Source of the DNA: Peptostreptococcaceae bacterium
GTDB lineage: Bacteria > Bacillota_A > Clostridia > Peptostreptococcales > Acidaminobacteraceae
Length of the DNA stretch: 11,194 nucleotides
Assembly (NCBI GenBank): GCA_013619035.1
Contig: JABXKX010000626.1
Location: 1 to 11,194 of the forward strand
Reading direction: 5' to 3'
The notes below the pieces were generated by a model that was given only the letters and a program-made list of their open reading frames with translations, was not told the DNA's origin and did not search any database. This document shows, piece after piece, positions 1-11,194 of this stretch. The position numbers were made by a program, and so were the translations under genes. How positions within the stretch are numbered: the first letter of the stretch is position 1; every line of letters starts with the position of its first letter.

Positions 1-9
1 ATTATTTAG

Positions 10-48
10 TTGACAGACTTAAGAAATTAATTTAAGATATATTATAAT
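10..48 (+). promoter_or_regulatory. Probable sigma-A promoter of the tyrS transcription unit
   Basis: A perfect TTGACA lies at 10-15. After a 17-base spacer comes TAAGAT (33-38), a fair -10 match. A perfect TATAAT at 43-48 is too far from this -35 to use it but could be an alternative -10 element. Either choice starts transcription just before the T-box leader. Which -10 is used cannot be decided from the sequence. Confidence 0.6.
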
Positions 49-60
49 TAAATATAAACG

Positions 61-275
61 TTGAAGAACAGAAGTAATATGATGGTAACGGATGTAGAGA
101 GTCACTGGTTGTTGAAAAGTGAACAGGTCATCATATGAACATACGGGTTTGGAGTTTTAATAGGAAACTATTACGTATGATACGCGTTAAGTATTTAAGA
201 GGAAACTATATGTTTCGAATTAAGGTGGTACCACGAGTTTTTCGTCCTTTGGGATGAGGAACTCTTTTTGTTTTT
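61..275 (+). promoter_or_regulatory. T-box riboswitch, tyrosine-specific, with terminator
   Basis: The leader binds uncharged tRNA-Tyr and then allows transcription of tyrS. Stem I contains an 8-bp helix (77-84 with 129-136) and a distal hairpin (102-106 with 118-122). Just 3' of the first helix lies the bulge GAACATACG, whose TAC at 142-144 fits a tyrosine specifier codon. A hairpin with a GAAA loop follows at 159-172. The T-box core AAGGTGGTACCACG is at 222-235. Its TGGT (226-229) would pair with an ACCA tRNA end, which fits the A discriminator of tRNA-Tyr. In the antiterminator, AAGG (222-225) pairs with CCTT (246-249) and ACGA (233-236) with TCGT (242-245), leaving the TGGTACC bulge. The competing terminator is a 13-bp hairpin (235-247 with 252-264) followed by T5-G-T5. 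The exact 5' limit of stem I is uncertain. Confidence 0.95.
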
Positions 276-300
276 GTATAAACTATAAAGGAGTGATCAA

Positions 301-1524
301 ATGAGCGTATTTGAAGTTTTAAAAGAAAGAGGCTTTATCGAGCAAATTACACATGAAGACGAAGTAATTTCGTTACTTGAAAAAGAAAAGGTAAAGTTTT
401 ATATTGGTTTTGATCCTACTGCTGACTCTCTACATGTTGGTCACTTCATTCAAGTGATTGTTATGATGCATATGCAACAAGCGGGTCACGTACCAATTGC
501 ATTAATTGGTGGTGGAACAGCTAAGATAGGAGATCCATCAGGTAAAACTGATATGAGAAAAATGTTAACAAATGAAATCATTGAGTCAAATGGTGAAAAG
601 ATGTTAAACCAAATGAGAAAATACATCACATTAGATGGTGAAGCTGGTATCCCTGCAAATAACGCAGACTGGTTAGACAACCTTAACTATGTATCATTCT
701 TAAGAGAGATTGGTAGTAAGTTTAATGTTAATAAAATGTTAGCAGCTGAATGTTTCAAACAAAGACTTGAAACAGGTTTATCATTCTTAGAATTTAACTA
801 CATGATCATGCAGGGTTATGATTTCTTAGAATTAAATAGAAGATACGATTGTAAGATGCAATTAGGTGGTAATGATCAATGGTCAAATATTATTGCAGGT
901 GTTAATCTTTGTAGAAAATCAGATCAAAAAGATGTATACGGTTTAACATTTAAATTGCTGACGACTTCTGCTGGTATTAAAATGGGTAAAACTGAAAAAG
1001 GTGCTGTATGGATTAATCCAGAGAAAACATCACCATATGAGATGTTCCAATACTTTAGAAATGTAGATGATGCAGATGTTGAAAACTGTTTATCACTTCT
1101 TACATTCTTACCAATGGATGAAGTAAGAAGATTAGGCGCATTAGAAGGTGCTGAAATAAATAAGGCAAAAGAAATATTAGCATTTGAATTTACAAAGTTA
1201 GTTCATGGTGAAGAAGAAGCTAAGAAAGCATTAGAAGCAACTAAAGCATTATTTGCTGGTGGTGGTGTAAGTGCTAATGTCCCTTCAACTGAAATGGATA
1301 AATCTTTATTTGAAGATGGCAAAGAGTTGTTAGAAGTTATGGTAGAGTTAGGCCTTCTTAAATCTAAAGGTGAAGGTAAAAGACTGGCTCAACAAAATGG
1401 TATTTCTTTAAATGATAAGAAAGTAACAGAGCCGTTCTACAAGTTGACGTTAGAAGATTTTGAAGATGGCAAAGCTATGATTAAAAAAGGTAAAAAAGTA
1501 TACCATCAAATCGAGTTAGTATAA
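301..1524 (+). CDS. tyrS: Tyrosyl-tRNA synthetase
   Basis: This cytoplasmic class I aminoacyl-tRNA synthetase charges tRNA-Tyr with tyrosine using ATP. The 407 residues are normal for bacterial TyrRS. The Rossmann-fold catalytic domain carries the HIGH-type motif HVGH (residues 45-48) after YIGFDPT, the tyrosine-site segments YMIMQGYD (about 167-174) and GGNDQW (189-194), and the KMSKS-type loop KMGKT (227-231). The C-terminal part (about 340-400) is an S4-like RNA-binding domain. The start at 301 has an AAAGGAG ribosome site about 8 bases upstream. The gene follows a T-box with a tyrosine specifier, so expression should rise when tRNA-Tyr is uncharged. Its TAA stop shares a base with the ATG of the next gene. 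All expected motifs are intact, and the identification is secure. Confidence 0.97.
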
Positions 1525-1934
1525 TGATTGCAAAGGTACTCGGTATAAAGGTTTCAATAGAAAAAGGCAAAGATCGTATCGAGGTAAAAGAAGGGGTTCT
1601 TCTCGAAAACTATGGTCTAAAGGGCGATGCATACTCTAAACCTGGTGATAGAGAGGTTTGTTTGATGTCTGTTAAGACAAAAGAACAGCTGATAGATTAT
1701 CAAGAAGGTTTATGTATTCAAAGATTTATTGAAACGATTTTGATTGATTTAGATCCTCGTGGTATATCTGTTGGTGATGTACTTGAACTTGGAGAAGCTG
1801 AAGTTTTGATAACCAAAAAAGGGAAACGTTGTTTTCCTGAATGTGCATTGATACAAAGTAAAAGAACTTGTCCTTTGGTGGCGGAACCGTTATTTGGTAA
1901 AGTACTAAAAGGTGGGAAAATAGAGATTAATTAA
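1524..1934 (+). CDS. Small MOSC-domain protein
   Basis: The 136-residue protein is essentially one MOSC domain, the fold shared with the C-terminal domain of molybdenum-cofactor sulfurase. Family-like segments are GLKGDAYSKPGDREVCLMS (about 31-49), RFIETILIDLDP (67-78), the cysteine-bearing stretch GKRCFPECALI (C103, C107) continuing to C116, and the ending FGKVLKGGKI (124-133). In the short MOSC proteins I know, the corresponding stretch is usually GK-CH--C with a later G-C-MP; here the histidine is Phe and MP is replaced by PL. MOSC proteins are thought to handle reactive sulfur or molybdenum cofactor, but the substrate of these stand-alone forms is not established. The ATG overlaps the tyrS stop (TAATG), indicating translational coupling and shared T-box control. 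No molybdenum-cofactor gene is nearby. Confidence 0.85.
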   Translation: MIAKVLGIKVSIEKGKDRIEVKEGVLLENYGLKGDAYSKPGDREVCLMSVKTKEQLIDYQEGLCIQRFIETILIDLDPRGISVGDVLELGEAEVLITKKGKRCFPECALIQSKRTCPLVAEPLFGKVLKGGKIEIN

Positions 1935-1967
1935 TATCATATTAAGAGTATTAACATAGCATTATTT

Positions 1968-2004
1968 AAACCTGTAAACATAGATGTTTACAGGTTTTCT
2001 TTAT
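1968..2004 (+). terminator. Intrinsic terminator of tyrS-MOSC operon
   Basis: There is a perfect 13-bp stem, 1968-1980 with 1985-1997, closed by the four-base loop TAGA and followed by a T-rich run (TTTTCTTTATAT). It lies 34 bases after the MOSC stop codon. The stem is nearly symmetric, with A-rich sequence on its 5' side, so some activity on the opposite strand is possible, but no gene reads in that direction here. Confidence 0.9.
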
Positions 2005-2044
2005 ATATTAGTAAGTGAAGAATCAAGCCTCCAAAAAATAACAA

Positions 2045-2104
2045 TGCAATATATAGTTGACATGATGCAATGTATATATTACACTTGCAATATAAAAGTT
2101 GCAA
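2045..2104 (+). promoter_or_regulatory. Promoter with phased TGCAAT direct repeats (putative operator)
   Basis: TTGACA (2057-2062), a 17-base spacer and TACACT (2080-2085) form a plausible sigma-A promoter, giving a leader of roughly 25 bases before the regulator gene. Three direct repeats of the form TGCAATRTATA start at 2045, 2066 and 2086, spaced 21 and 20 bases apart (two helical turns). They lie before the -35, inside the spacer and directly after the -10. A further TTGCAA is at 2099-2104. The placement suggests an operator, most simply for autoregulation by the XRE protein encoded next. The binding protein is inferred. Confidence 0.6.
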
Positions 2105-2115
2105 GGGAGGCGTTT

Positions 2116-2322
2116 ATGCCAATTAATAAAATTAAGTTAAGAAGGATGGAATTGGATATGACTCAAGGTGATTTAGCGAAAGCTGTAGGTGTCACAAGAC
2201 AAACTATCGGATTGATTGAATCAGGCAAATACAATCCAACTCTAAGTCTTTGTATTAATATTGCAAAGAAGTTAGGAAAAACTTTAGACGAATTATTTTG
2301 GGAGGCAGGTCATGAAGAATAA
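2116..2322 (+). CDS. Small XRE-family transcriptional regulator
   Basis: The 68-residue cytoplasmic DNA-binding protein consists of a single Cro/CI-type helix-turn-helix. The segment [20 protein letters not shown] (about 15-34) is the HTH, followed by the family-typical [28 protein letters not shown]. It resembles the short YozG-like regulators that are often paired with a small membrane protein. The ATG at 2116 is chosen because AAGGGAGG sits 5 bases upstream and the XRE domain starts directly after it. The frame is open upstream to an ATG at 1984, but that would extend through the terminator stem and the promoter. The gene overlaps the next by 11 bases. Phased repeats in its promoter suggest autoregulation, which is inferred. 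Confidence 0.9.
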
Positions 2323-2740
2323 AAAGTTCAAAATGCTCAATTATTATAAAGTCGTAGGTGCTTTACTTTACGTCATTGGATTAACTATAATCACTATGAA
2401 TAAACTCGCACCTGATGTGCTGGGACATGACTTTTTCAGCGGTTTTGGAACAGGTTTACTTATTGTAGCAATCGGTTTATCAGTTATATACTTAATCAAA
2501 CGAAAAGATAAAGAGTTTGTAGAGGATCTAGAAGCCTCAGTTCATGATGAAAGAGTCATCAAAGAAAAAGTTGAGACAAAAGCAATTTTGCTCCATATCC
2601 TAATTGCTGAATTAGTCATTATGGTGACAATATCTGTGTTCTATGAATTTGAGTTCTCCATAGGTGGTACGATCATGTTATATACATATATATTGTCTTT
2701 TGCAATTGTAAAAGTATATAGAAAGCTAAGAAAAAAATAA
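2312..2740 (+). CDS. Four-helix integral membrane protein paired with XRE regulator
   Basis: The 142-residue protein has a basic N-terminus (KNKKFK) and four predicted membrane helices at about 12-30, 44-62, 90-111 and 117-135, ending in a basic tail (KVYRKLRKK). The loop between helices 2 and 3 is highly charged and contains [16 protein letters not shown], reminiscent of the DERV..I..KA loop of DUF2178 membrane proteins, but I cannot confirm that family. The gene overlaps the regulator gene by 11 bases and has GGGAGG (2300-2305) inside it as ribosome site, so the two are translated as a pair. XRE plus small membrane protein pairs are common in Bacillota. They may sense membrane state or control regulator activity, but the function is unknown. 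The NatAB-like exporter lies just downstream. Confidence 0.8.
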
Positions 2741-2747
2741 TAAAACG

Positions 2748-2777
2748 TGGACAATTAACTCAGTCGGTTATTATAAA
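2748..2777 (+). promoter_or_regulatory. Possible promoter for the natAB-like operon
   Basis: TGGACA (2748-2753), an 18-base spacer and TATAAA (2772-2777) give a reasonable sigma-A promoter starting 8 bases after the preceding stop codon. The leader to the next start would be about 55 bases. No terminator separates the upstream membrane protein gene, so readthrough from the XRE promoter is also possible. Confidence 0.4.
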
Positions 2778-2838
2778 AAATACCATGAGAATATTGTATA
2801 TTTGAAATACAGTTTATATGAAGCAATAGGAGGTAAAA

Positions 2839-3609
2839 ATGGTTGAAGTAAAGAATTTAAAAAAGATATTTAAACTGAATAAAAAACAAATGAAAAAAGA
2901 TCAATCCTCTTCATCGGTAAAGGTAGCAGTTGATGATATTACTTTTACAGCTAAGCCAGGTGAAATATTTGGATTGTTAGGTCCTAATGGGGCCGGTAAA
3001 ACAACAACTCTGAGATGTATATCAACATTGATTAAACCGACTGAAGGTAAAGTTTATGTTTTGGGTTTAGAGAATCAGAAAAAATCGACGGATGTTAGAA
3101 GTAAAATTGCTTTTTTAACAAATGAACTGAAATTAGACACTCATTTTACGGCAAGTGATACCATTAAATATTTTGGTGAACTTCATAGTATGCCATTAAA
3201 AGAAATTGAATCTAGAAGAGATGAATTATTTGATTACTTTGGTATCAGTGAGTTTGCTACTAGAAAGATTTCAGAGTTTTCAACGGGTATGAAACAAAAA
3301 TTATCTATAGCAGTAAGTTTGATTCATAATCCTGATGTCATTATATTTGATGAACCTACAAATGGATTAGATATTATTACAGCGAGAGCGGTAACCGATT
3401 ATTTGTTAAAATTAAGAAATGAAGGTAAGGTTGTTATTGTATCTACTCATATTATGACAGTAGCAGAAAAATTATGTGATCAAATCGGAATTATTATAGA
3501 TGGGAAATTAGTTGCAAATGGTGATTTAGAGACTATTTTAAAAGAGTCTAATACAACTGATTTAGAGGATGCTTTCTTTAAACATTACTCTGATGTGAAA
3601 GGAGTATAA
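2839..3609 (+). CDS. natA: ABC transporter ATP-binding protein, NatA-like
   Basis: The 256-residue ATPase powers an export complex with the permease encoded next. The Walker A motif GPNGAGKTT is at 48-56, the signature region FSTGMKQK at 147-154, Walker B VIIFDE at 167-172 followed by PTNGLD, and the switch histidine in STHIM at H204. All catalytic residues are present. STGM instead of LSGGQ is usual for NatA-like proteins. A short charged segment (about 14-27, KKQMKKDQSSSS) separates the first strand from the rest of the domain. NatA/NatB of Bacillus subtilis exports sodium, but many relatives carry other or unknown substrates, so the name shows family rather than proven substrate. GGAGG lies just before the ATG. 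The permease gene starts 2 bases after the stop codon. Confidence 0.88.
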   Translation: MVEVKNLKKIFKLNKKQMKKDQSSSSVKVAVDDITFTAKPGEIFGLLGPNGAGKTTTLRCISTLIKPTEGKVYVLGLENQKKSTDVRSKIAFLTNELKLDTHFTASDTIKYFGELHSMPLKEIESRRDELFDYFGISEFATRKISEFSTGMKQKLSIAVSLIHNPDVIIFDEPTNGLDIITARAVTDYLLKLRNEGKVVIVSTHIMTVAEKLCDQIGIIIDGKLVANGDLETILKESNTTDLEDAFFKHYSDVKGV

Positions 3610-3611
3610 AG

Positions 3612-4811
3612 ATGGATAAAAGATTATTAACCGTTGTAAAAAAAGAACTTAAAAGGATTTTTACTGATAGAAGATTAATATTTACAGTGATTATCTTGCC
3701 TGCATTAAGTATTTTTATCATGTACAGTTTAATGGGCAATGTCATGACAACAATGATAGATGATGTGGAACTTAATGTACCATCAATTGTTGCAGCTAAT
3801 GCGCCTGAAAGCTTTAAAGAGTTTGTATCTAAAGATAAAAGATATGACTTTACATATGTAGATGAGGCATCTGATACCTATAAAAATCAAATATTGGAAG
3901 CTGAAATTGAAATCTATATGATTTTTGATGAGCAGTTTGATGAGAAAGCAATGGCTTATGAAAAGCCTAATGTAAAGAGATATTATAATGGCATTGAGGA
4001 TTACTCGCAAGAAGCACGTTATAATATTGATAAAACACTAACCGATTTTGAGATGTTTATGTTGGGTCAAAGAATTGGCAATCCAGAGCATGTGGAAGTA
4101 TTTGATTTAAACAGAGGTGTGACAGACGATAAAATACAGGATGACAAAAAAGCAACTGGAAAAGGATTGGCAATATTATTTCCAATGTTGATAGCAATAT
4201 TCTTATTTAGTGGTGCTATGAGTGTTGGTCCTGATATGATTGCGGGTGAAAAAGAAAGAGGCACTATGGCCACGCTTCTATTAACACCAGTAAAACGTGA
4301 AACACTTGCAATGGGGAAAGTAATAGCACTCGGTATTGTGGCAATTGTAACTTCAGCGTCATCCTTCCTTGGCATTATTGCTTCCATGCCAAGTGCTGGA
4401 GAAATGTTTGCTAGTGATGGTATTGATATGGCTTCACTTCAATTTGTTTTAACGGATTATCTGTCACTGTTTGCGATTATGATTACTTTGGTGAGTGTTT
4501 ATGTTGCAGTGATTTGTATGGTTTCTATTATTTCTAAAACCATTAAAGAAGCCAATACATATATGGCTCCAATCTACATGGTGGTTATGATTTCTGGTTT
4601 CTCTACAATGTATACAACCGGTGAGATGGCAATGTGGAAATTTGGTATTCCAGTTTATGGATCAATCATTGCACTTAAGAAATTGTTTGCTTTTGAACTG
4701 ACACCAAACATGGTATTATTAACATGTGGCTCATCTATAATACTAGCAGGTATTTTAATTTACGCCATTAAAGTATTGTTTAACAGTGAGAAAGTTATGT
4801 TTAACGCATAA
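3612..4811 (+). CDS. natB: ABC-2 type permease, NatB-like
   Basis: This 399-residue integral membrane protein is the translocation subunit partnering the ATPase encoded immediately upstream. A first helix at about 21-42 is followed by a large extracytoplasmic domain (about 43-184). Further membrane helices lie at about 185-207, 236-260, 284-308, 316-335, 345-360 and 367-390. The cytoplasmic segment GEKERGTMATLLLTPVKRE (212-230) after the second helix is a hallmark of the NatB/ABC-2 family and contacts the ATPase. The length is close to that of B. subtilis NatB. The ribosome site GGAG overlaps the end of the ATPase gene, so the two are coupled. The substrate may be sodium, a drug or a peptide and cannot be read from the sequence. 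Confidence 0.87.
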   Translation: MDKRLLTVVKKELKRIFTDRRLIFTVIILPALSIFIMYSLMGNVMTTMIDDVELNVPSIVAANAPESFKEFVSKDKRYDFTYVDEASDTYKNQILEAEIEIYMIFDEQFDEKAMAYEKPNVKRYYNGIEDYSQEARYNIDKTLTDFEMFMLGQRIGNPEHVEVFDLNRGVTDDKIQDDKKATGKGLAILFPMLIAIFLFSGAMSVGPDMIAGEKERGTMATLLLTPVKRETLAMGKVIALGIVAIVTSASSFLGIIASMPSAGEMFASDGIDMASLQFVLTDYLSLFAIMITLVSVYVAVICMVSIISKTIKEANTYMAPIYMVVMISGFSTMYTTGEMAMWKFGIPVYGSIIALKKLFAFELTPNMVLLTCGSSIILAGILIYAIKVLFNSEKVMFNA

Positions 4812-4822
4812 ATGGAGGCAAA

Positions 4823-5446
4823 ATGAATTTTTTCAGTATATCAGCATTGGTCGTTGATAGAAAAGACTTAACCATATATGAAAAGATGTGTTGTGTTGTT
4901 TTAGCGAGATTTTTTCAGGATGAAACTCTTGAAGATATCACGATGGAGCAATTGGCAAAACATATGAGTGTAGAGGAGATTGTTGCAAAAGGTGCATTTT
5001 ATTCGCTTAGAGCGAAAGGTATTTTAGAATCTCTAGAGGCTGAGGTTAAGCCGGGTACAATTATAAAAGCTGAAGAAGTTCAAGCGGTACCAGAAGCTTC
5101 TGAAAATGAAGTTGTTTTGACATATGACCAAAAAGTTCTTAAGGTCTTTGAGATCATTGATGAAAAAATTAATGAAAGAGAAGCAAGAATTATCTTAAGC
5201 TTTGCAGGTAATGATCTTGAGAAAATTCGAGATAAATACAAAATAGCAAAAGCATCTCAATTCCAAGATAAGATTGAAGTTTTAATTCATGAACTTCAAA
5301 AGAAAGAACATGGTCGTATTATTAAAAAAGAAGAAATCATAGAAGAAGAAAAACCATTTAAGGAATTTGCATTTGAGGAAGAGGTTCAAAATACTCAGAT
5401 CAATACATATAAAATCAATTTAATGAAGAAATATGCAAAAAAATAA
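4823..5446 (+). CDS. Uncharacterised protein with winged-helix and DnaD-like architecture
   Basis: I do not firmly recognise this 207-residue soluble protein. Residues about 16-72 look like a winged helix: LTIYEKMCCVVLARF, then ITMEQLAKHMSVEEIVAKGAFYSLRAKGIL, the pattern seen in the N-terminal domain of DnaD-like and phage replication or plasmid proteins. A linker rich in Glu, Val and Pro (75-99) leads to a helical segment (about 102-162) that could match a DnaD/DnaB_2-type C-terminal domain. The tail is strongly acidic (EEIIEEEKPFKEFAFEEE) and ends in basic YKINLMKKYAKK. GGAGG (4814-4818) gives a good ribosome site 11 bases after the permease stop, so the gene is co-transcribed with the exporter, whose function gives no hint. 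A role as DNA-binding regulator or replication accessory is speculation. Confidence 0.75.
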   Translation: MNFFSISALVVDRKDLTIYEKMCCVVLARFFQDETLEDITMEQLAKHMSVEEIVAKGAFYSLRAKGILESLEAEVKPGTIIKAEEVQAVPEASENEVVLTYDQKVLKVFEIIDEKINEREARIILSFAGNDLEKIRDKYKIAKASQFQDKIEVLIHELQKKEHGRIIKKEEIIEEEKPFKEFAFEEEVQNTQINTYKINLMKKYAKK

Positions 5447-5456
5447 AAAATGCTTA

Positions 5457-5485
5457 TTGACATAGGGTAAAAATCACCCTATACT
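5457..5485 (+). promoter_or_regulatory. Strong sigma-A promoter of the methionine operon with inverted repeat in the spacer
   Basis: A perfect TTGACA (5457-5462), an exact 17-base spacer and TATACT (5480-5485) form the best promoter in the window. Transcription would begin about 14 bases before the SAM aptamer. The perfect 7-bp inverted repeat ATAGGGT (5462-5468) and ACCCTAT (5476-5482), separated by AAAAATC, fills the spacer and touches both promoter boxes. This is a typical repressor-site position. No T-run follows, so it does not read as a terminator of the upstream gene. Confidence 0.8.
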
Positions 5486-5504
5486 TAATTCAACAATTAC
5501 ATAG

Positions 5505-5601
5505 ACTTATCAAGAGTGATGGAGGGACTGGCCCTATGATATCCGGCAACCGCAGAAATGCATGGTGCTAAATCCAGCGGTGTAAACCGGAAGATGAGTG
5601 A
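5505..5601 (+). promoter_or_regulatory. SAM-I (S-box) riboswitch aptamer
   Basis: The conserved S-box segments are present in order: CTTATCAAGAG (5506-5516), GGAGGGACTGGCCC (5521-5534) with the kink-turn region after it, and CCGGCAACC (5543-5551). P1 pairs 5505-5511 with 5593-5599, with one G-U pair. P3 is a hairpin around the GAAA loop at 5555-5558 (ACC and GCA pairing with TGC and GGT). P4 is CGGT (5578-5581) with ACCG (5586-5589) around a GTAA loop. Binding S-adenosylmethionine stabilises P1 and turns off the downstream genes, which fits the methionine-synthesis genes that follow. Confidence 0.96.
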
Positions 5602-5648
5602 GAAAAGATAGCATATTTATACTCTCCTTTCCGGAGAGTATTTTTTTA
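5589..5648 (+). terminator. SAM riboswitch expression platform: terminator with competing antiterminator
   Basis: The terminator stem is ACTCTCC (5621-5627) with GGAGAGT (5633-5639), loop TTTCC, followed by A and seven or more T. A competing antiterminator can form from GGAAG (5589-5593) with TTTCC (5628-5632) and GAGT (5596-5599) with ACTC (5621-5624), separated by a small internal loop. It uses the 3' strand of P1, so aptamer and antiterminator exclude each other. High SAM should therefore terminate transcription. The antiterminator pairing was worked out by eye. Confidence 0.9.
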
Positions 5649-5668
5649 TATTAAAATAGGAGGCAACT

Positions 5669-6817
5669 ATGAGAACTTATGAAGAGATTAATGAGAAGAT
5701 TAAAGCAGGCACAGCAGTTGTTGTTACTGCTGAAGAAGTTGTAGATATTGTAAAGGAAATAGGCATTACAAATGCGACGAAGAAAATAGATGTGGTGACA
5801 ACTGCAACATTTGGACCGATGTGTTCGTCGGGAGCGTTTTTAAACTTTGGGCACACCAGTCCAGCGATTAGAATGGAAAAAGTGACATTAAATGATGTAC
5901 CGGCATCGGGGGGACTTGCAGCAGTAGATACATATATTGGTGCGACAGAAGAATCCAATGATAAAGGTTATGAATATGGTGGGGCGCATGTTATTTGTGA
6001 TTTAATAGCAGGCAAGTCTGTGGAACTGAAAGCAACTGGTAAAGGCACGGACTGTTATCCTAGAAAATCAGTAGAAAGATCGATTACTCTTGAGGATCTT
6101 AATGAAGCGTATATCTACAATCCTAGAAATTGTTATCAAAATTACGCAGCGGCAGCCAATACATCAGGTAGACCATTATATACTTATATGGGTACACTCC
6201 TTCCAAATGTCGGTGTGGTAACCTATTCTACAGCGGGTACACTCAGTCCACTTTTAAACGATCCATATTATAGAACCATTGGTATTGGCACAAGAATATT
6301 TATTGCTGGTGCTCAGGGCTATGTGGCTTGGCGAGGCACTCAGTTTAATTCCGCAGCAGAAAGAGATGAAAATGGTATTCCTAAAGGTACAGGTGGAACG
6401 CTCGCTCTAGTTGGTGATATGAAAGAAATGAGCAAAGAATTTATCGCACCTGCTGTTTATGAAAAATATGGGACCTCTTTATTTGTAGGTGTTGGCATTC
6501 CGATTCCAATTCTAGACGAAGACATGATGAAACAAGTATCCATTGGTAATGATAAATTAGAAACCAATGTTTTAGATTATTCGGTTTCCGATAAAGCAAA
6601 ACCCGTTTTAAAAAGAGTGACTTATGAAGCCTTACAATCCGGAAAAATTGAGATTGATGGTAAAGAAGTAAAAACAGCACCACTTGCGAGTTTATACAAA
6701 GCAAGACAAATAGCGGGTCTTTTAAAAGAACAGATAGAAAAAGGTGAATTTTATTTATCCAAACCAGTAGAACTCTTTGATACAAATAGTCAAACAAAGC
6801 CAATGGGAGGAAAATAA
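5669..6817 (+). CDS. Homocysteine biosynthesis protein, DUF39 family
   Basis: The 382-residue cytoplasmic protein belongs to DUF39, the family of Methanosarcina acetivorans MA1821, which with a NIL-ferredoxin partner makes homocysteine from aspartate semialdehyde and sulfide. Recognisable parts are the N-terminal RTYEEINEKI, TTATFGPMCSSG with C52, the NFGHTSPAI segment, GKGTDCYPRK with C129, NPRNCYQNYAAA with C155, and the glycine-rich GVGIPIPILDE stretch. C52 and C129 lie 77 residues apart, matching the spacing of the two essential cysteines I recall for MA1821 (54 and 131). They probably carry the sulfur as persulfide or thiol. AGGAGG lies 6 bases before the ATG. It is the first gene after the SAM riboswitch and ends one base before the NIL-ferredoxin gene. 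Family assignment is confident; the exact chemistry is still uncertain. Confidence 0.93.
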   Translation: MRTYEEINEKIKAGTAVVVTAEEVVDIVKEIGITNATKKIDVVTTATFGPMCSSGAFLNFGHTSPAIRMEKVTLNDVPASGGLAAVDTYIGATEESNDKGYEYGGAHVICDLIAGKSVELKATGKGTDCYPRKSVERSITLEDLNEAYIYNPRNCYQNYAAAANTSGRPLYTYMGTLLPNVGVVTYSTAGTLSPLLNDPYYRTIGIGTRIFIAGAQGYVAWRGTQFNSAAERDENGIPKGTGGTLALVGDMKEMSKEFIAPAVYEKYGTSLFVGVGIPIPILDEDMMKQVSIGNDKLETNVLDYSVSDKAKPVLKRVTYEALQSGKIEIDGKEVKTAPLASLYKARQIAGLLKEQIEKGEFYLSKPVELFDTNSQTKPMGGK

Positions 6818-6818
6818 G

Positions 6819-7226
6819 ATGAGAATAAAGATGATTTTAAAGTTTCCAAAGGCTGTGACAAATACACCGATTACTTATGATTTGATTAAAAAGTACGATT
6901 TAAGAATAAACATCCTAAAAGCGGATATCAACTATAAATTAGAAGGGTATTTGGTTTTTGACATCGATGGTAATTCGAAAAAGATTGCTGAGGCGCTCGC
7001 TTATTTAGAAAGTGAAGGTGTCCATGCAGATCTGATTACCAATACCATTACAATTGATAAAGAAACATGTGTCAATTGTGGCATATGTACAGGATCGTGT
7101 GCGGTAAGAGCTCTAAATATGGATAGAGAGAATTGGACACTAAATTATATAGAAGAAAGATGTGTAGGATGTAATCGATGTGTGGATGCCTGTCCAACAA
7201 GATCCATTCAAAACACAGCATGGTGA
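6819..7226 (+). CDS. NIL-domain ferredoxin partner of the DUF39 protein
   Basis: The 135-residue protein combines a NIL domain (about 1-75) with two 4Fe-4S motifs, C84-x2-C87-x2-C90-x3-C94 and C115-x2-C118-x2-C121-x3-C125-P. The architecture matches MA1822, the electron-transfer partner of DUF39 proteins, and it likely supplies reducing power for sulfur transfer to homocysteine. NIL domains also form the C-terminus of the MetN methionine transporter ATPase, where they bind methionine, so a ligand-sensing role is possible but inferred. The start at 6819 is preferred because GGGAGG (6805-6810) precedes it and the NIL domain begins there. The upstream ATG at 6777 lies inside the preceding gene. 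The first cluster lacks the usual proline after its fourth cysteine (Ala instead). The next gene starts 4 bases after the stop. Confidence 0.93.
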   Translation: MRIKMILKFPKAVTNTPITYDLIKKYDLRINILKADINYKLEGYLVFDIDGNSKKIAEALAYLESEGVHADLITNTITIDKETCVNCGICTGSCAVRALNMDRENWTLNYIEERCVGCNRCVDACPTRSIQNTAW

Positions 7227-7230
7227 TGAA

Positions 7231-7944
7231 ATGTATCAAGAAAGAGTTTATAGAGAACAGATTAAAAGTGAAAATTTATATAGAAAAGTACTAGTTGAAA
7301 AAGAAACAGATTTATTGATTGTCACGTCAAAACCCTTTGATAATGATCAAAGAGTATACGGCTATCGACACGCCATAGAATCATATATAAAAAGAAGACC
7401 AGAGTTTTTAGGTTTGGTACCCATTTCAAATGATGAATTTGCACCAGAAATCGTAAAACATATGATTGAAGCCTCAAGATCTGCAGGCGTTGGTCCTATG
7501 GCGACAGTAGCAGGCGCCATCTCTCATTATGTTGGAGAATACTTAACTTCTTCAGAGATTATGATAGAAAACGGTGGCGATATTTATCTGAAATCAGAGG
7601 AAGATAAAGTGATTTCTATTTATGCAGGAGAATCACCATTTTCAAATCAAGTGGGTATTAAAATCAAATCTGAAGACACACCTATTGGAATTTGTACTTC
7701 TGCTGGAAAAGTAGGTCACTCGCTGAGTTATGGTAATGCAGATGCGGTGGTAGTTATTTCTGAAGATACACTACTTGCTGATGCAACAGCAACAGCCATT
7801 GGGAATATTGTTAAAACTACAGAAGATATTCGTGAAGGATTAGAATTTGGAAAAAGTATTTTAGGTATCTTAGGTATTGTAATCATAATAGATGATGAGT
7901 TGGGTGCTTGGGGTGATATTGAACTGGTAAGCGTTGATGAATAA
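7231..7944 (+). CDS. COG2122/UPF0280 ApbE-like protein
   Basis: The 237-residue protein belongs to the UPF0280 (COG2122) branch of the ApbE-like fold. Family segments are GVGPMATVAGAI (87-98), ENGGDIY (113-119), CTSAGKVGHS (155-164) and ADATATAIGN (183-192). ApbE itself transfers FMN from FAD to proteins or matures Fe-S systems. COG2122 proteins were implicated genetically in homocysteine formation in Desulfovibrio together with DUF39 and NIL-ferredoxin proteins, but their biochemical activity is unknown. Its place directly after those two genes supports the same pathway. The ATG at 7231 is favoured because it starts 4 bases after the previous stop and keeps the family N-terminus (YQERVYR). 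An upstream ATG at 7180 would overlap the ferredoxin cysteine motif. The ribosome site is weak (GGTGAT), suggesting coupling. The end overlaps the next gene by 8 bases. Confidence 0.88.
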   Translation: MYQERVYREQIKSENLYRKVLVEKETDLLIVTSKPFDNDQRVYGYRHAIESYIKRRPEFLGLVPISNDEFAPEIVKHMIEASRSAGVGPMATVAGAISHYVGEYLTSSEIMIENGGDIYLKSEEDKVISIYAGESPFSNQVGIKIKSEDTPIGICTSAGKVGHSLSYGNADAVVVISEDTLLADATATAIGNIVKTTEDIREGLEFGKSILGILGIVIIIDDELGAWGDIELVSVDE

Positions 7945-8578
7945 AAATGATGTACTCAGACATTTAGGACATAACAATCAAGAAATAGATCAATCTTTAG
8001 ATGAAATGATTGATGATTATATGAAGAGTGTAGAGGGTCTAAACGGTAAATATGTCTATCAAATATTCGACTTTGAACAAGGCGATGATATAAAGGTTTT
8101 AAATACAATACTCAATTTAAAAGGAGATTCGATAAAACATATATTAAGTCAGGCCAGTCAACTGATTCTATTTGCAGGCACACTTGGTCATGAAATGGAT
8201 CAAAAGATATTAAAAAGTTCTTATGACTCTTCTTTAAATATGATGATTTTAGATGCCTGTGCTAGTGTTAAGATAGAAGATGTCTTAGATCAAATGGAAG
8301 AAGAAATCAAAACAACACATCCTGTACATTTAACGCCGAGGTTTAGTCCTGGTTACGGTGATTTATCACTTGATATACAAAGGGATTTAATAGAGGTTGT
8401 AGGTGCAAAAAAGATTGGTATCCATGTGACTGATTCATCAATTTTATTACCGAAAAAGTCCGTGACCGGTATCATTGGTATTTCAGATAAAAAAATGACG
8501 GTAACCTATAGATTTTGTGATGATTGCTTACTTAGAACATCATGTGATTTTAAACGATGTAAAAGAGAGGGACAATGA
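7937..8578 (+). CDS. Stand-alone methionine synthase activation-domain protein
   Basis: The 213-residue protein matches the C-terminal activation domain of cobalamin-dependent methionine synthase, made here as a separate protein. That domain binds S-adenosylmethionine and remethylates cob(II)alamin after oxidation. The SAM-binding signature RFSPGYGD (135-142, the RxxxGY motif) and the segment TDSSILLPKKSVTGIIGIS (165-183) are clear, and the N-terminal half is helical. After the domain comes a cysteine tail, C194-x2-C197-x5-C203-x4-C208, which could bind a metal or an Fe-S cluster. E. coli MetH has no such tail. Thermotoga maritima also has a split MetH with a separate activation protein. The start could be TTG 7934 or ATG 7937, and the ATG is chosen. 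It overlaps the previous gene by 8 bases and metH by 4 (ATGA), so expression is closely coupled. Confidence 0.87.
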   Translation: MNKNDVLRHLGHNNQEIDQSLDEMIDDYMKSVEGLNGKYVYQIFDFEQGDDIKVLNTILNLKGDSIKHILSQASQLILFAGTLGHEMDQKILKSSYDSSLNMMILDACASVKIEDVLDQMEEEIKTTHPVHLTPRFSPGYGDLSLDIQRDLIEVVGAKKIGIHVTDSSILLPKKSVTGIIGISDKKMTVTYRFCDDCLLRTSCDFKRCKREGQ

Positions 8579-10929
8579 ATTTTAAAGAATTTCTAAATAA
8601 AAATCAAGTATTATTTGATGGTGCTTTAGGCACACAAATTCAAAAATTAGGTTTACCTTTAGGTACTATCCCAGAAACGATTAATAAAGAAAGACCAGAA
8701 GACTTGCTTAAGATTCATAAAGCCTATGTAAAAACAGGCTCACAGGTGATTACAACCAACACTTTTGGAGCTAGTGGTTATAAACTTAAAGAGACACCGT
8801 ATTCAGTAGAAGAGGTAGTGACTTCTGGTATAGCACTAGCAAAACAAGCCAATCCGAATTATGTAGCGCTGGATATTGGTCCAATTGGTAGAATGATGAA
8901 ACCCATTGGGGATTTAACCTTTGATGAGGCTTATGATGCATTTAAAGAACAACTTGAATTTAGTAAAGGGGCAGATCTCGTTTTAATAGAAACGATGTCT
9001 GATTTAAATGAGGCAAGAGCTGCAGTTTTAGCGGTTAAAGAAAATACAGAATTGCCAGTAATTGTTTCAATGACCTTCCAAGAAGATGGGAGAACCTTAA
9101 CGGGATTAACACCAGAATGTTTTGTTTATTCAATGGAAGCCCTTGGCGTAGATGGCTTAGGTGTAAACTGTTCGTTAGGACCTGGTCAATTAACTCCAAT
9201 TGTTAAAAGGATTTTAGATACAGCCACAGTACCAGTGATTGTACAAGCAAATGCTGGATTACCAGAAGTGCGTGATGGTATTACTTATTTTAATGTAGAA
9301 CCGCCTGAGTATGAAATTTTCGGGAAAGAGTATTTAGAACTGGGTGTTCGTATGATTGGTGGGTGTTGTGGTACCAGTCCTGATCATATCAAAGAATTAA
9401 AACAATATATCGGTGAAAAAGAAATCATAAACAAACCTAAAAAGCATGTGATTTGTTCTTCTTCTAAAGTTGTTGAATTTAATGGATTTACCAGAATTGG
9501 TGAACGCATCAATCCTACAGGACATAAGAAACTAAAAGAAACACTGAGAAACAATGACATTAATTTAGCGATACGAGAAGGTTTGTCACAAGCAGATGCT
9601 GGTGCTGAAGTACTAGATGTTAATGTGGGTTTGCCTGATATTGATGAACTTGATATCATGAAACGTGTGGTAGATGAATTATCAACCATTACACCATTAC
9701 CGCTTCAAATAGATTCTTCTAAATCTAAAGTGATTGAAGCGGGTTTAAGACGTTTATCGGGTGTCGGCATAATCAACTCCATTAATGGGAAACAAAAATC
9801 GATGGATAGATTGTTTCCAATAGCTAAAAAATACGGCGCTATGATGGTCTGTTTGACCTTAGATGAAGAAGGCATTCCTGAAACAGCAGAAGCACGTGTT
9901 CAGATTGCTGAAAAAATGATAAATGAAGCTAAAAAGTATGGTATAGCAGAAGAACGTTTGATTATTGATTGTTTGGTATTAACCGTTTCAGCCCAACAGT
10001 CTCAAGTGATGGAAACCATCAAAGCAATTAAAATGATAAAGAGTAAATACAAGGTTCAGTTCACATTAGGTATCAGCAATGTCTCTTATGGTATGCCTAA
10101 TAGACCACTTTTAACGAGAACCTTCTTATCGTTAGCGATGGAAGCGGGTCTGAATTCTGCGATTATGGATCCTTTAGATCATCATTTACAAAATACAATC
10201 TTATCGATGAATGTACTTTTAAATCATGATGTGGGTGGTGAAGAGTATATAGAAAACCTTGTGGATGTAAAAGATGTAAAAAATCATGGTGTCAAAAAAA
10301 GTAAAACCGAAAAATCTTATTTACTCGAAATGATACTGAAAGGTTATAAAGAAGAAGTTTTAGAATATACAAAAGCAGAGCTGTTAGAGAATCAACCGCT
10401 AGAAGTTGTTAATAATCAATTGGTGCCTACTTTAGATCAAGTGGGTGTGTTATTTGATAAGAAAGAGATCTTCTTACCTCAACTCATTAGGGCTGCAGAA
10501 ACCATTGGAGTTGCATTTGATGTAATCAAGTCATCTTTAGAATCAGGCTCGAAAGCTATCTCAAAAGGTAAGATTGTTATGGCAACGGTTCTAGGGGATG
10601 TACATGATATTGGTAAAAACCTAGTTAAAATTCTTTTAGAAAACTATGGTTATGATGTTATTGATTTAGGTAAAGACGTTTCTCCAGAATTGGTAGTAGA
10701 AACGGTTTTAAAAGAGGATATTAAATTAGTTGGACTAAGTGCGTTAATGACAACAACAGTTATAAGCATGGAGGAAACAATTAAACAACTGAATGAAAAG
10801 TCACCTGAGACCAAAGTATTTGTTGGAGGAGCAGTATTAACTGCTGATTATGCTAAAACGATACATGCAGATTTTTATTGTAAAGATGCGAAGGCTTCGG
10901 TTACTGTTGCACAAGAAGTATTTAAATGA
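8575..10929 (+). CDS. metH: Cobalamin-dependent methionine synthase, lacking activation domain
   Basis: The 784-residue enzyme transfers the methyl group of 5-methyltetrahydrofolate to homocysteine through cobalamin. The homocysteine domain (about 1-290) has FDGALGTQ (14-21) and the zinc cysteines C199 (GVNCSLGP) and C264-C265 (GGCCGTS). The pterin domain (about 300-560) has IGERINPTGHKKL (308-320), LDVNVGLPDID (347-357) and PLQIDSS (376-382). The cap and B12-binding domains (about 580-784) contain the DxHxxG motif DVHDIG (675-680), with His677 expected as the cobalt ligand. The protein ends after the B12 domain, as in the split MetH of Thermotoga maritima, and the missing activation domain is encoded by the gene just upstream. 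The ATG overlaps that gene's stop (ATGA), with GAGAGGGA as ribosome site. It is the last gene of the SAM-controlled unit. Confidence 0.96.
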   Translation: MNFKEFLNKNQVLFDGALGTQIQKLGLPLGTIPETINKERPEDLLKIHKAYVKTGSQVITTNTFGASGYKLKETPYSVEEVVTSGIALAKQANPNYVALDIGPIGRMMKPIGDLTFDEAYDAFKEQLEFSKGADLVLIETMSDLNEARAAVLAVKENTELPVIVSMTFQEDGRTLTGLTPECFVYSMEALGVDGLGVNCSLGPGQLTPIVKRILDTATVPVIVQANAGLPEVRDGITYFNVEPPEYEIFGKEYLELGVRMIGGCCGTSPDHIKELKQYIGEKEIINKPKKHVICSSSKVVEFNGFTRIGERINPTGHKKLKETLRNNDINLAIREGLSQADAGAEVLDVNVGLPDIDELDIMKRVVDELSTITPLPLQIDSSKSKVIEAGLRRLSGVGIINSINGKQKSMDRLFPIAKKYGAMMVCLTLDEEGIPETAEARVQIAEKMINEAKKYGIAEERLIIDCLVLTVSAQQSQVMETIKAIKMIKSKYKVQFTLGISNVSYGMPNRPLLTRTFLSLAMEAGLNSAIMDPLDHHLQNTILSMNVLLNHDVGGEEYIENLVDVKDVKNHGVKKSKTEKSYLLEMILKGYKEEVLEYTKAELLENQPLEVVNNQLVPTLDQVGVLFDKKEIFLPQLIRAAETIGVAFDVIKSSLESGSKAISKGKIVMATVLGDVHDIGKNLVKILLENYGYDVIDLGKDVSPELVVETVLKEDIKLVGLSALMTTTVISMEETIKQLNEKSPETKVFVGGAVLTADYAKTIHADFYCKDAKASVTVAQEVFK

Positions 10930-10950
10930 TGGGAAACCATCATTTTTTTT
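10924..10950 (+). terminator. Intrinsic terminator of the methionine operon, overlapping the metH stop
   Basis: The 9-bp stem AAATGATGG (10924-10932) pairs perfectly with CCATCATTT (10937-10945) around a GAAA tetraloop, followed by a T-run to 10950. The metH stop codon TGA (10927-10929) and its last codon lie within the 5' strand of the stem, so terminating ribosomes would compete with hairpin folding. Confidence 0.92.
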
Positions 10951-11007
10951 GCAACTAATTTACAACTTTTGTTAGGTTTTTGGTTTAAACTGTAAGTGGG
11001 GGTACTT

Positions 11008-11194
11008 ATGAAAAAAATACTAGTTGTAGAAGACGATAGAAGCATCTCAGAATTAATAGGCATCCACTTAACTCTGAATGATTTTGAAGTGGACTTTGCA
11101 TACAATGGGTTAGAAGGACGAACTTCACTTAATGAGAATGAATATAATTTGGTTATTTTAGATCTGATGATGCCTATATTAAATGGTTATGAAC
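11008..11194 (+). CDS. Response regulator receiver domain, partial (window end)
   Basis: The first 62 residues of a two-component response regulator are visible before the window ends. MKKILVVEDDRSISELIGIHL has the acidic pair D9-D10 after the first strand. VILDLMMPILNGYE carries the phosphoacceptor aspartate D52 and the usual MMP turn. The protein is therefore a phosphorylated signal receiver. The sequence resembles the OmpR/PhoB subfamily, but the output domain is not visible, so that is inferred. GGGGGT, a few bases before the ATG, serves as ribosome site. The gene follows the metH terminator after a 57-base gap and is probably a separate unit, perhaps followed by its histidine kinase gene. 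Confidence 0.93.
   Translation, partial: MKKILVVEDDRSISELIGIHLTLNDFEVDFAYNGLEGRTSLNENEYNLVILDLMMPILNGYE

Follow-up and report, generated by a model that had tools for sequence, protein, structure and literature searches.

Gene content and control elements of the locus

An 11,194-nucleotide (nt) stretch of DNA from a Peptostreptococcaceae bacterium (assembly GCA_013619035.1, contig JABXKX010000626.1, positions 1 to 11,194; hereafter the window) contains five same-strand genes behind a promoter and an S-adenosylmethionine (SAM)-I riboswitch, or S-box. From the sequence of the window and its relatives, these genes are very probably transcribed as one SAM-repressed unit that makes methionine via the DUF39 route to homocysteine (probability about 0.85). 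This route, which combines a DUF39 protein, a NIL-ferredoxin and a COG2122 protein, is said to have been described by Rauch in 2014 and Allen in 2015. The features of the unit are as follows (aa, amino acids).

5457..5485, + strand: sigma-70 type promoter, TTGACA-17-TATACT (11/12 consensus matches; 18 nt 5′ of the aptamer)
5504..5600, + strand: SAM-I (S-box) riboswitch aptamer (RF00162, 81.9 bits; model 1-108, complete)
5589..5632, + strand: proposed anti-terminator, P1 3′ strand with terminator 5′ arm (predicted duplex about −10 kcal/mol)
5619..5641, + strand: intrinsic terminator of the riboswitch leader (9-pair stem, loop of 5, U tract; −12.6 kcal/mol)
5669..6817, + strand: DUF39 / HcyBio protein, 382 aa, L-aspartate semialdehyde sulfurtransferase family, with Cys52 and Cys129 (PF01837, 497.6 bits; cut-off 26.2)
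6819..7226, + strand: two-cluster ferredoxin with a NIL domain, partner of the MA1822 type, 135 aa (PF09383, 53.3 bits; Fer4; two CxxCxxCxxxC motifs)
7231..7944, + strand: COG2122 protein, presumably the family also named PRK04334, 237 aa (NF003323, 264.5 bits, E 8e-79; PDB 2o34, E 1e-38)
7937..8578, + strand: stand-alone MetH reactivation-domain protein, 213 aa (PDB 1j6r, E 1.2e-11; PF02965, 24.3 bits, cut-off 25; RFSPGY motif)
8575..10929, + strand: B12-dependent methionine synthase MetH without activation domain, 784 aa (PF02574, PF00809, PF02607, PF02310)
10924..10945, + strand: operon-end terminator (terminator scan)

An earlier sequence-only reading had placed one promoter and a SAM-I switch ahead of these five closely spaced genes, and this arrangement was confirmed. 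The intergenic gaps range from −8 to +4 nt (in order 1, 4, −8 and −4), with the NIL-ferredoxin gene directly adjoining the DUF39 gene, and an identical five-gene order is found at three related loci (L001, L002, and L003). The RF00162 match (E 1.6e-18) exceeds the gathering score of 44.4 across the whole aptamer. The J1/2 and P3 core letters agree with the SAM consensus, as would befit a SAM-binding RNA, and the aptamer departs from the Rfam consensus at a single conserved base, on the kink-turn side of P2. The aptamer and the leader terminator are solid. The promoter is the top-scoring of 21 sites within positions 5400-11000, where shuffled sequences average 22.6 sites, so the number of sites is not raised. 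Two more terminator-like sites are both intragenic, and shuffles yield 2.3 overall. The 3′ strand of P1 (about 5593-5600) overlaps a segment that could base-pair with the terminator 5′ arm (GGAAG and GAGUG opposite CUUUC and UACUC), a layout that plausibly follows the usual SAM-I off-switch logic, and the same-place pairing can be drawn in 8/8 leaders (the window, L001, L002, L003, L004, L007, L009, and L012).

Cys52 of the DUF39 protein is invariant in 37/37 aligned proteins and Cys129 nearly so. Their spacing of 77 is the same as that of Cys54 and Cys131 in the Methanosarcina acetivorans L-aspartate semialdehyde sulfurtransferase MA1821, which we know from the paper's numbering only; the available part of that paper gives Cys54 as essential and Cys131 as non-essential (PMC12068725). 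A CBS domain, proposed there as the SAM sensor of the archaeal enzyme, was not found in the window protein by Pfam profile search. A high-confidence structure model of the window protein (predicted local distance difference test score 94.4) had no match at E ≤ 0.001 when compared with the PDB by Foldseek.

The MetH protein contains homocysteine methyltransferase, pterin-binding, and two B12 domains, with the activation domain absent. The 213-aa protein encoded just before it matches PDB 1j6r, labelled methionine synthase in its entry, which we take to be TM0269 of Thermotoga maritima. In that organism the MetH TM0268 is reportedly accompanied by TM0269 as a separate reactivation protein (work attributed to Huang, 2007). 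The window likewise pairs an activation-less MetH with a separate activation protein, with the difference that in the window the two genes come after the homocysteine genes, the activation gene ahead of metH.

S-box riboswitches precede DUF39 in several phyla

In order to see how often this arrangement occurs, the window DUF39 protein was searched in one genome per species, and the best 80 of 256 confirmed relatives were used, a sample weighted towards close relatives. Eighteen SAM-I sequences, 7 of the 80 loci among their sources, were used to build a covariance model, which placed SAM-I upstream of DUF39 in 31/80 loci, from Bacillota, Nitrospirota, and Bacteroidota by record title. Nineteen of these score at least 62 bits (16 Bacillota and 3 Nitrospirae by title), while 12 Bacteroidota loci score 40-49 bits. 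Applied to 30 of the 80 loci, RF00162 confirmed all 15 model-positive ones among them at ≥60 bits and matched in none of the 15 model-negative ones. A second sample comprised 148 genomes of the class of Acidaminobacter JC074 (G002), of which 23 encode DUF39 (the class draw). SAM-I lies directly upstream of DUF39 on the same strand in 7 of these 23, where position alone predicts about 0.003.

A DUF39 tree was labelled at 100 rows (38 S-box, 4 T-box, and 58 without S-box); it is a quick tree with long branches and omits L051, L094, and L106, whose upstream sequence is wanting, and L113, which duplicates L002. On this tree 9 changes suffice for the S-box label, compared with at least 24 in 300 shuffles, and the label is therefore inherited within clades, yet with several gains or losses. 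The claim that the switch controls the published route together with methionine synthase is strengthened by loci where the S-box recurs without MetH in the unit. Of the 19 strong S-box loci, 12 have no same-strand MetH downstream in the locus; for five of these the contig stops less than 4 kb from DUF39, and three carry MetH on the opposite strand. In 4/4 loci checked (L004, L007, L012, and L017), MetF (PF02219) follows COG2122 and joins the S-box DUF39 unit.

Several variants of the unit were observed. A tandem pair of SAM-I aptamers lies ahead of DUF39 in a Maledivibacter locus (L004, 9346-9450 and 9536-9639). One clade with S-box-led units has, between DUF39 and COG2122, a ferredoxin of about 63-69 aa that lacks the NIL domain (Pfam was run on L012 and L015 only). 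These ferredoxins are located as follows.

L007, 1715-1921: ferredoxin without NIL
L009, about 11162-11360: ferredoxin without NIL
L012, 11159-11368: ferredoxin without NIL
L015, 11169-11360: ferredoxin without NIL
L017, 4748-4954: ferredoxin without NIL

In Nitrospirae S-box units the NIL-ferredoxin is followed by a protein of some 333 aa that combines Fer4_5 and Fer4 domains (L019 11650-12651, where Pfam was run; frames also in L021 and L025) and is possibly another electron donor. In genome G095 the SAM-I element (C1:3267897-3267992) follows COG2122 instead of preceding DUF39, and the COG2122 frame (C1:3268080-3268817) contains one TAG.

A methionine T-box occupies the same position in another clade

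T-box elements were sought in 30 loci, a scan outside which most tree rows without S-box fell, and were detected upstream of DUF39 in four (L006, L008, L010, and L016; 100.8-120.9 bits). These form one supported clade of four, with titles naming two Actinomycetota, one Candidatus Aquicultor, and one unidentified organism. The gap between T-box and DUF39 match is 91-103 nt in three loci and 473 nt in L006, where the link is less certain. The specifier loop reads GAACATGG in all four. For calibration, a T-box with the GAACATGG core in Maledivibacter halophilus M1 (G004) precedes a methionine-tRNA ligase (MetRS; 665.7 bits vs the curated cut-off of 598), while leaders ahead of TrpRS-, TyrRS-, PheRS-, and AlaRS-like genes in G002 and G004 have different specifier reads. 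The Met frame was identified by profile and the other synthetases by eye, and 24 of 55 T-boxes were used. The four DUF39 T-boxes thus carry the specifier core of the MetRS leader. Because that core is shared and the other synthetase leaders differ, a Met T-box would play in this clade the role that the SAM switch has elsewhere.

COG2122 tracks DUF39

The inclusion of the poorly understood COG2122 family in methionine synthesis, also part of the sequence-only reading, gains from its distribution. In the class draw, COG2122 profile matches occur in 23/23 DUF39 genomes vs 1/125 others, the latter a weak match at 24 bits (G085), with Fisher p 2e-27 for strong hits, a value not corrected for kinship. 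In each of the 23 the match is no more than about 1.5 kb away from DUF39, with the gene split between contigs in G016, and 15/23 are above the curated cut-off. The window protein itself, at 264.5 bits, is below the cut-off of 271 for NF003323, one of four NCBIfam part-models; 8/23 of the relatives are likewise below it, and the cut-off is therefore drawn tightly around one part-model. In the Nitrospirae loci L019, L021, and L025, COG2122 was not found within the locus. According to the available part of the published Desulfovibrio vulgaris genetics, DUF39, the NIL/ferredoxin protein, and COG2122 are all required for homocysteine, and homoserine is not an intermediate (PMC5764234).

Proposed mechanism and alternative readings

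The switch would work as is established for SAM-I elements generally. With SAM bound, the aptamer P1 would close, the leader terminator would form, and the five genes would be off; under SAM shortage, P1 would release its 3′ strand for pairing with the terminator 5′ arm, and polymerase would read on. From published work on the route, DUF39 would add sulfur to aspartate semialdehyde via a Cys52 persulfide, the two-cluster ferredoxin of the NIL protein would give the electrons that yield homocysteine, and COG2122 would be needed for this step, perhaps by loading sulfur. MetH would then methylate homocysteine, and, by analogy with the T. maritima pair, the separate activation-domain protein may rescue oxidised cobalamin using SAM. 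An aspartate semialdehyde dehydrogenase domain is encoded in 11/11 S-box DUF39 genomes, but also in 14/14 control genomes, and does not discriminate.

Several results weigh against this reading. The anti-terminator of the window is only plausible, because shuffled strands pair as well as its −10.0 kcal/mol duplex in 172/500 cases, and because the lowest-energy folds retain P1 and the terminator, with the terminator alone forming when P1 is blocked; for the other seven leaders, shuffled strands pair equally well in 10 to 175 of 500. In the class draw, 16/23 DUF39 genomes have no S-box directly before DUF39 (2 of the 16 have less than 300 nt upstream), and a scan of these 16 loci gave no other Rfam element 5′ of DUF39, the sole match, in L098, being 3′ of COG2122. 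The tie of DUF39 to COG2122 is not universal, since Synechococcus elongatus, a control genome (one of 14), encodes PF01837 but not COG2122. As told in the available part of PMC5764234, COG2122 of M. acetivorans is required only at low sulfide, and added sulfide rescued the mutant. Lastly, the closest genome to the window (G001; 89.7% DNA identity over 9.2 kb and 78% over 2 kb at the window start) encodes an intact metY-metA pair behind its own second SAM-I switch (MetY 602.6 bits; MetA, of the acetyl type, 484.6 bits vs a cut-off of 460.5).

This last result leaves the word "single" in the sequence-only reading without support, a reading which had held that an O-acetylhomoserine sulfhydrylase route elsewhere in the genome would count against it. 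Route comparisons were made in the genomes of relatives, the longest contig with the exact DUF39 protein of the window being 12,648 bases. Such a route is present in G001, but MetA, MetX, and MetY were not found above cut-off in three genomes that are isolates by title, namely Acidaminobacter JC074 (G002), M. halophilus M1 (G004), and Lutispora m25 (G005), all of which have an S-box DUF39 unit. The single full-length PF01053 protein of each isolate is racemase-like and below cut-off in G002 and a methionine gamma-lyase in G004 and G005. A further relative (G003) retains a remnant behind SAM-I, in which the first half of MetY, with an internal stop, runs into the last part of MetA; G003 is a metagenome-assembled genome, in which an assembly fault could account for the remnant.

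L086, 1239-2470 (C93 of G003): decayed metY/metA remnant with intact SAM-I leader

In G002, G004, and G005, and in G003 apart from this remnant, no route other than the DUF39 unit was found.

These genomes bear on the possibility that the DUF39 operon is a second, conditional route, used under strict anaerobiosis or at particular sulfide levels, with MetA and MetY as the main route and both SAM-repressed. We give this a little under an even chance. It fits the two switched units of G001, and it fits the class draw, where 13/23 DUF39 genomes encode an acyltransferase together with MetY (12 MetA, one of them in pieces, and 1 MetX at 456.9 bits vs a cut-off of 500), one encodes MetA alone, and nine encode none, absences that are soft as completeness is not given. 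MetA is not significantly rarer in the presence of DUF39 (13/23 vs 90/125, p 0.15), and in G041 and G139 a switch is found on both the DUF39 unit and a metY or metA unit. It fits poorly with the three isolates and G003, where a conditional route would have no main route beside it above cut-off. Most likely, the DUF39 route coexists with or replaces the O-acetylhomoserine route in the lineage of the window, whose clade would carry the DUF39 unit beside, or in place of, an S-box-controlled metY-metA operon. The two units are both intact in G001, metY-metA is fused and decayed in G003, and it is gone in G002; if metY-metA is ancestral in this clade, its pattern on the DUF39 tree would imply two independent losses. 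The broader proposition, that the DUF39 route is widely placed under RNA control by its methionine end product, a feature gained repeatedly (SAM-I in three phyla, a Met T-box in an actinobacterial clade), and that the S-box DUF39 unit is displacing S-box metY-metA in the clade of the window, we hold at even odds.

Other readings of the switch fare worse. The S-box could serve MetH and its reactivator, with the DUF39 genes as passengers at the front of the unit that have another sulfur role; in favour of this, metH is clearly a methionine gene and belongs to the same unit at L001-L003, yet the strong S-box loci without same-strand downstream MetH, including the Nitrospirae loci L019, L021, and L025, the Met T-box in the same position in another clade, and the Desulfovibrio genetics that ties all three proteins to homocysteine (available text of PMC5764234) make this very improbable. 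Least credible is a SAM-I variant for another ligand. Spermidine-sensing variants have been published, altered in J1/2 and the P3 internal loop as far as the available text describes them (PMC10853860), and the window aptamer does depart from consensus at one conserved base on the P2 side; however, its J1/2 and P3 core match the SAM consensus, it scores 81.9 bits, and its context is methionine rather than polyamine genes.

Relation to known systems

The unit has the same three families as the route of Desulfovibrio and methanogens, with the conserved cysteine probably kept, but in D. vulgaris the three genes have the distant locus numbers DvMF_1464, 0262, and 0044 (available part of PMC5764234), whereas the window combines them with MetH in one SAM-I-led unit. 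It resembles the S-box methionine operons of Firmicutes (RF00162) in aptamer, terminator, and downstream methionine genes, and differs in that the switch acts on the DUF39 route. Pathway, riboswitch class, and split MetH have each been described before; their linkage was not met in the literature searched. Among the matches listed, no paper linked the DUF39/COG2122 route to a riboswitch, S-box, or T-box, and a prior mention is possible, for example in a 2004 Gram-positive survey. Text matches for DUF39 with riboswitch were rejected, as PMC8269248 lacks the whole word DUF39, and PMC4342826 and PMC6141813 concern DUF3906 and DUF3932. The available portions of two regulon surveys (PMC3766115 and PMC4239095) do not name DUF39. 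In Oleidesulfovibrio alaskensis G20, the sole SAM-I precedes an unnamed hypothetical gene, RS11395, as given in the available part of PMC11124144, and this might be the same DUF39 link unrecognised.

Of the ways to make homocysteine, the DUF39 route is the least well understood, and its COG2122 protein is without an assigned step. Linkage to SAM- or Met-tRNA-sensing RNAs in several phyla provides independent evidence for a role in methionine supply beyond Desulfovibrio and methanogens, and such RNAs are usable for finding further pathway partners. A clade containing one genome with both routes, one with a decayed classical route, and one that has lost it makes pathway replacement directly testable, and the wider regulatory pattern merits a short comparative study.

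Elsewhere in the window, an ordinary T-box leader (52-252, 108.9 bits) lies ahead of a gene that is TyrRS-like by eye (301-1524), and the next frame (1524-1934) is similar to the MOSC portion of a MoaC/MOSC fusion at 79.8 bits, far below the cut-off of that model.

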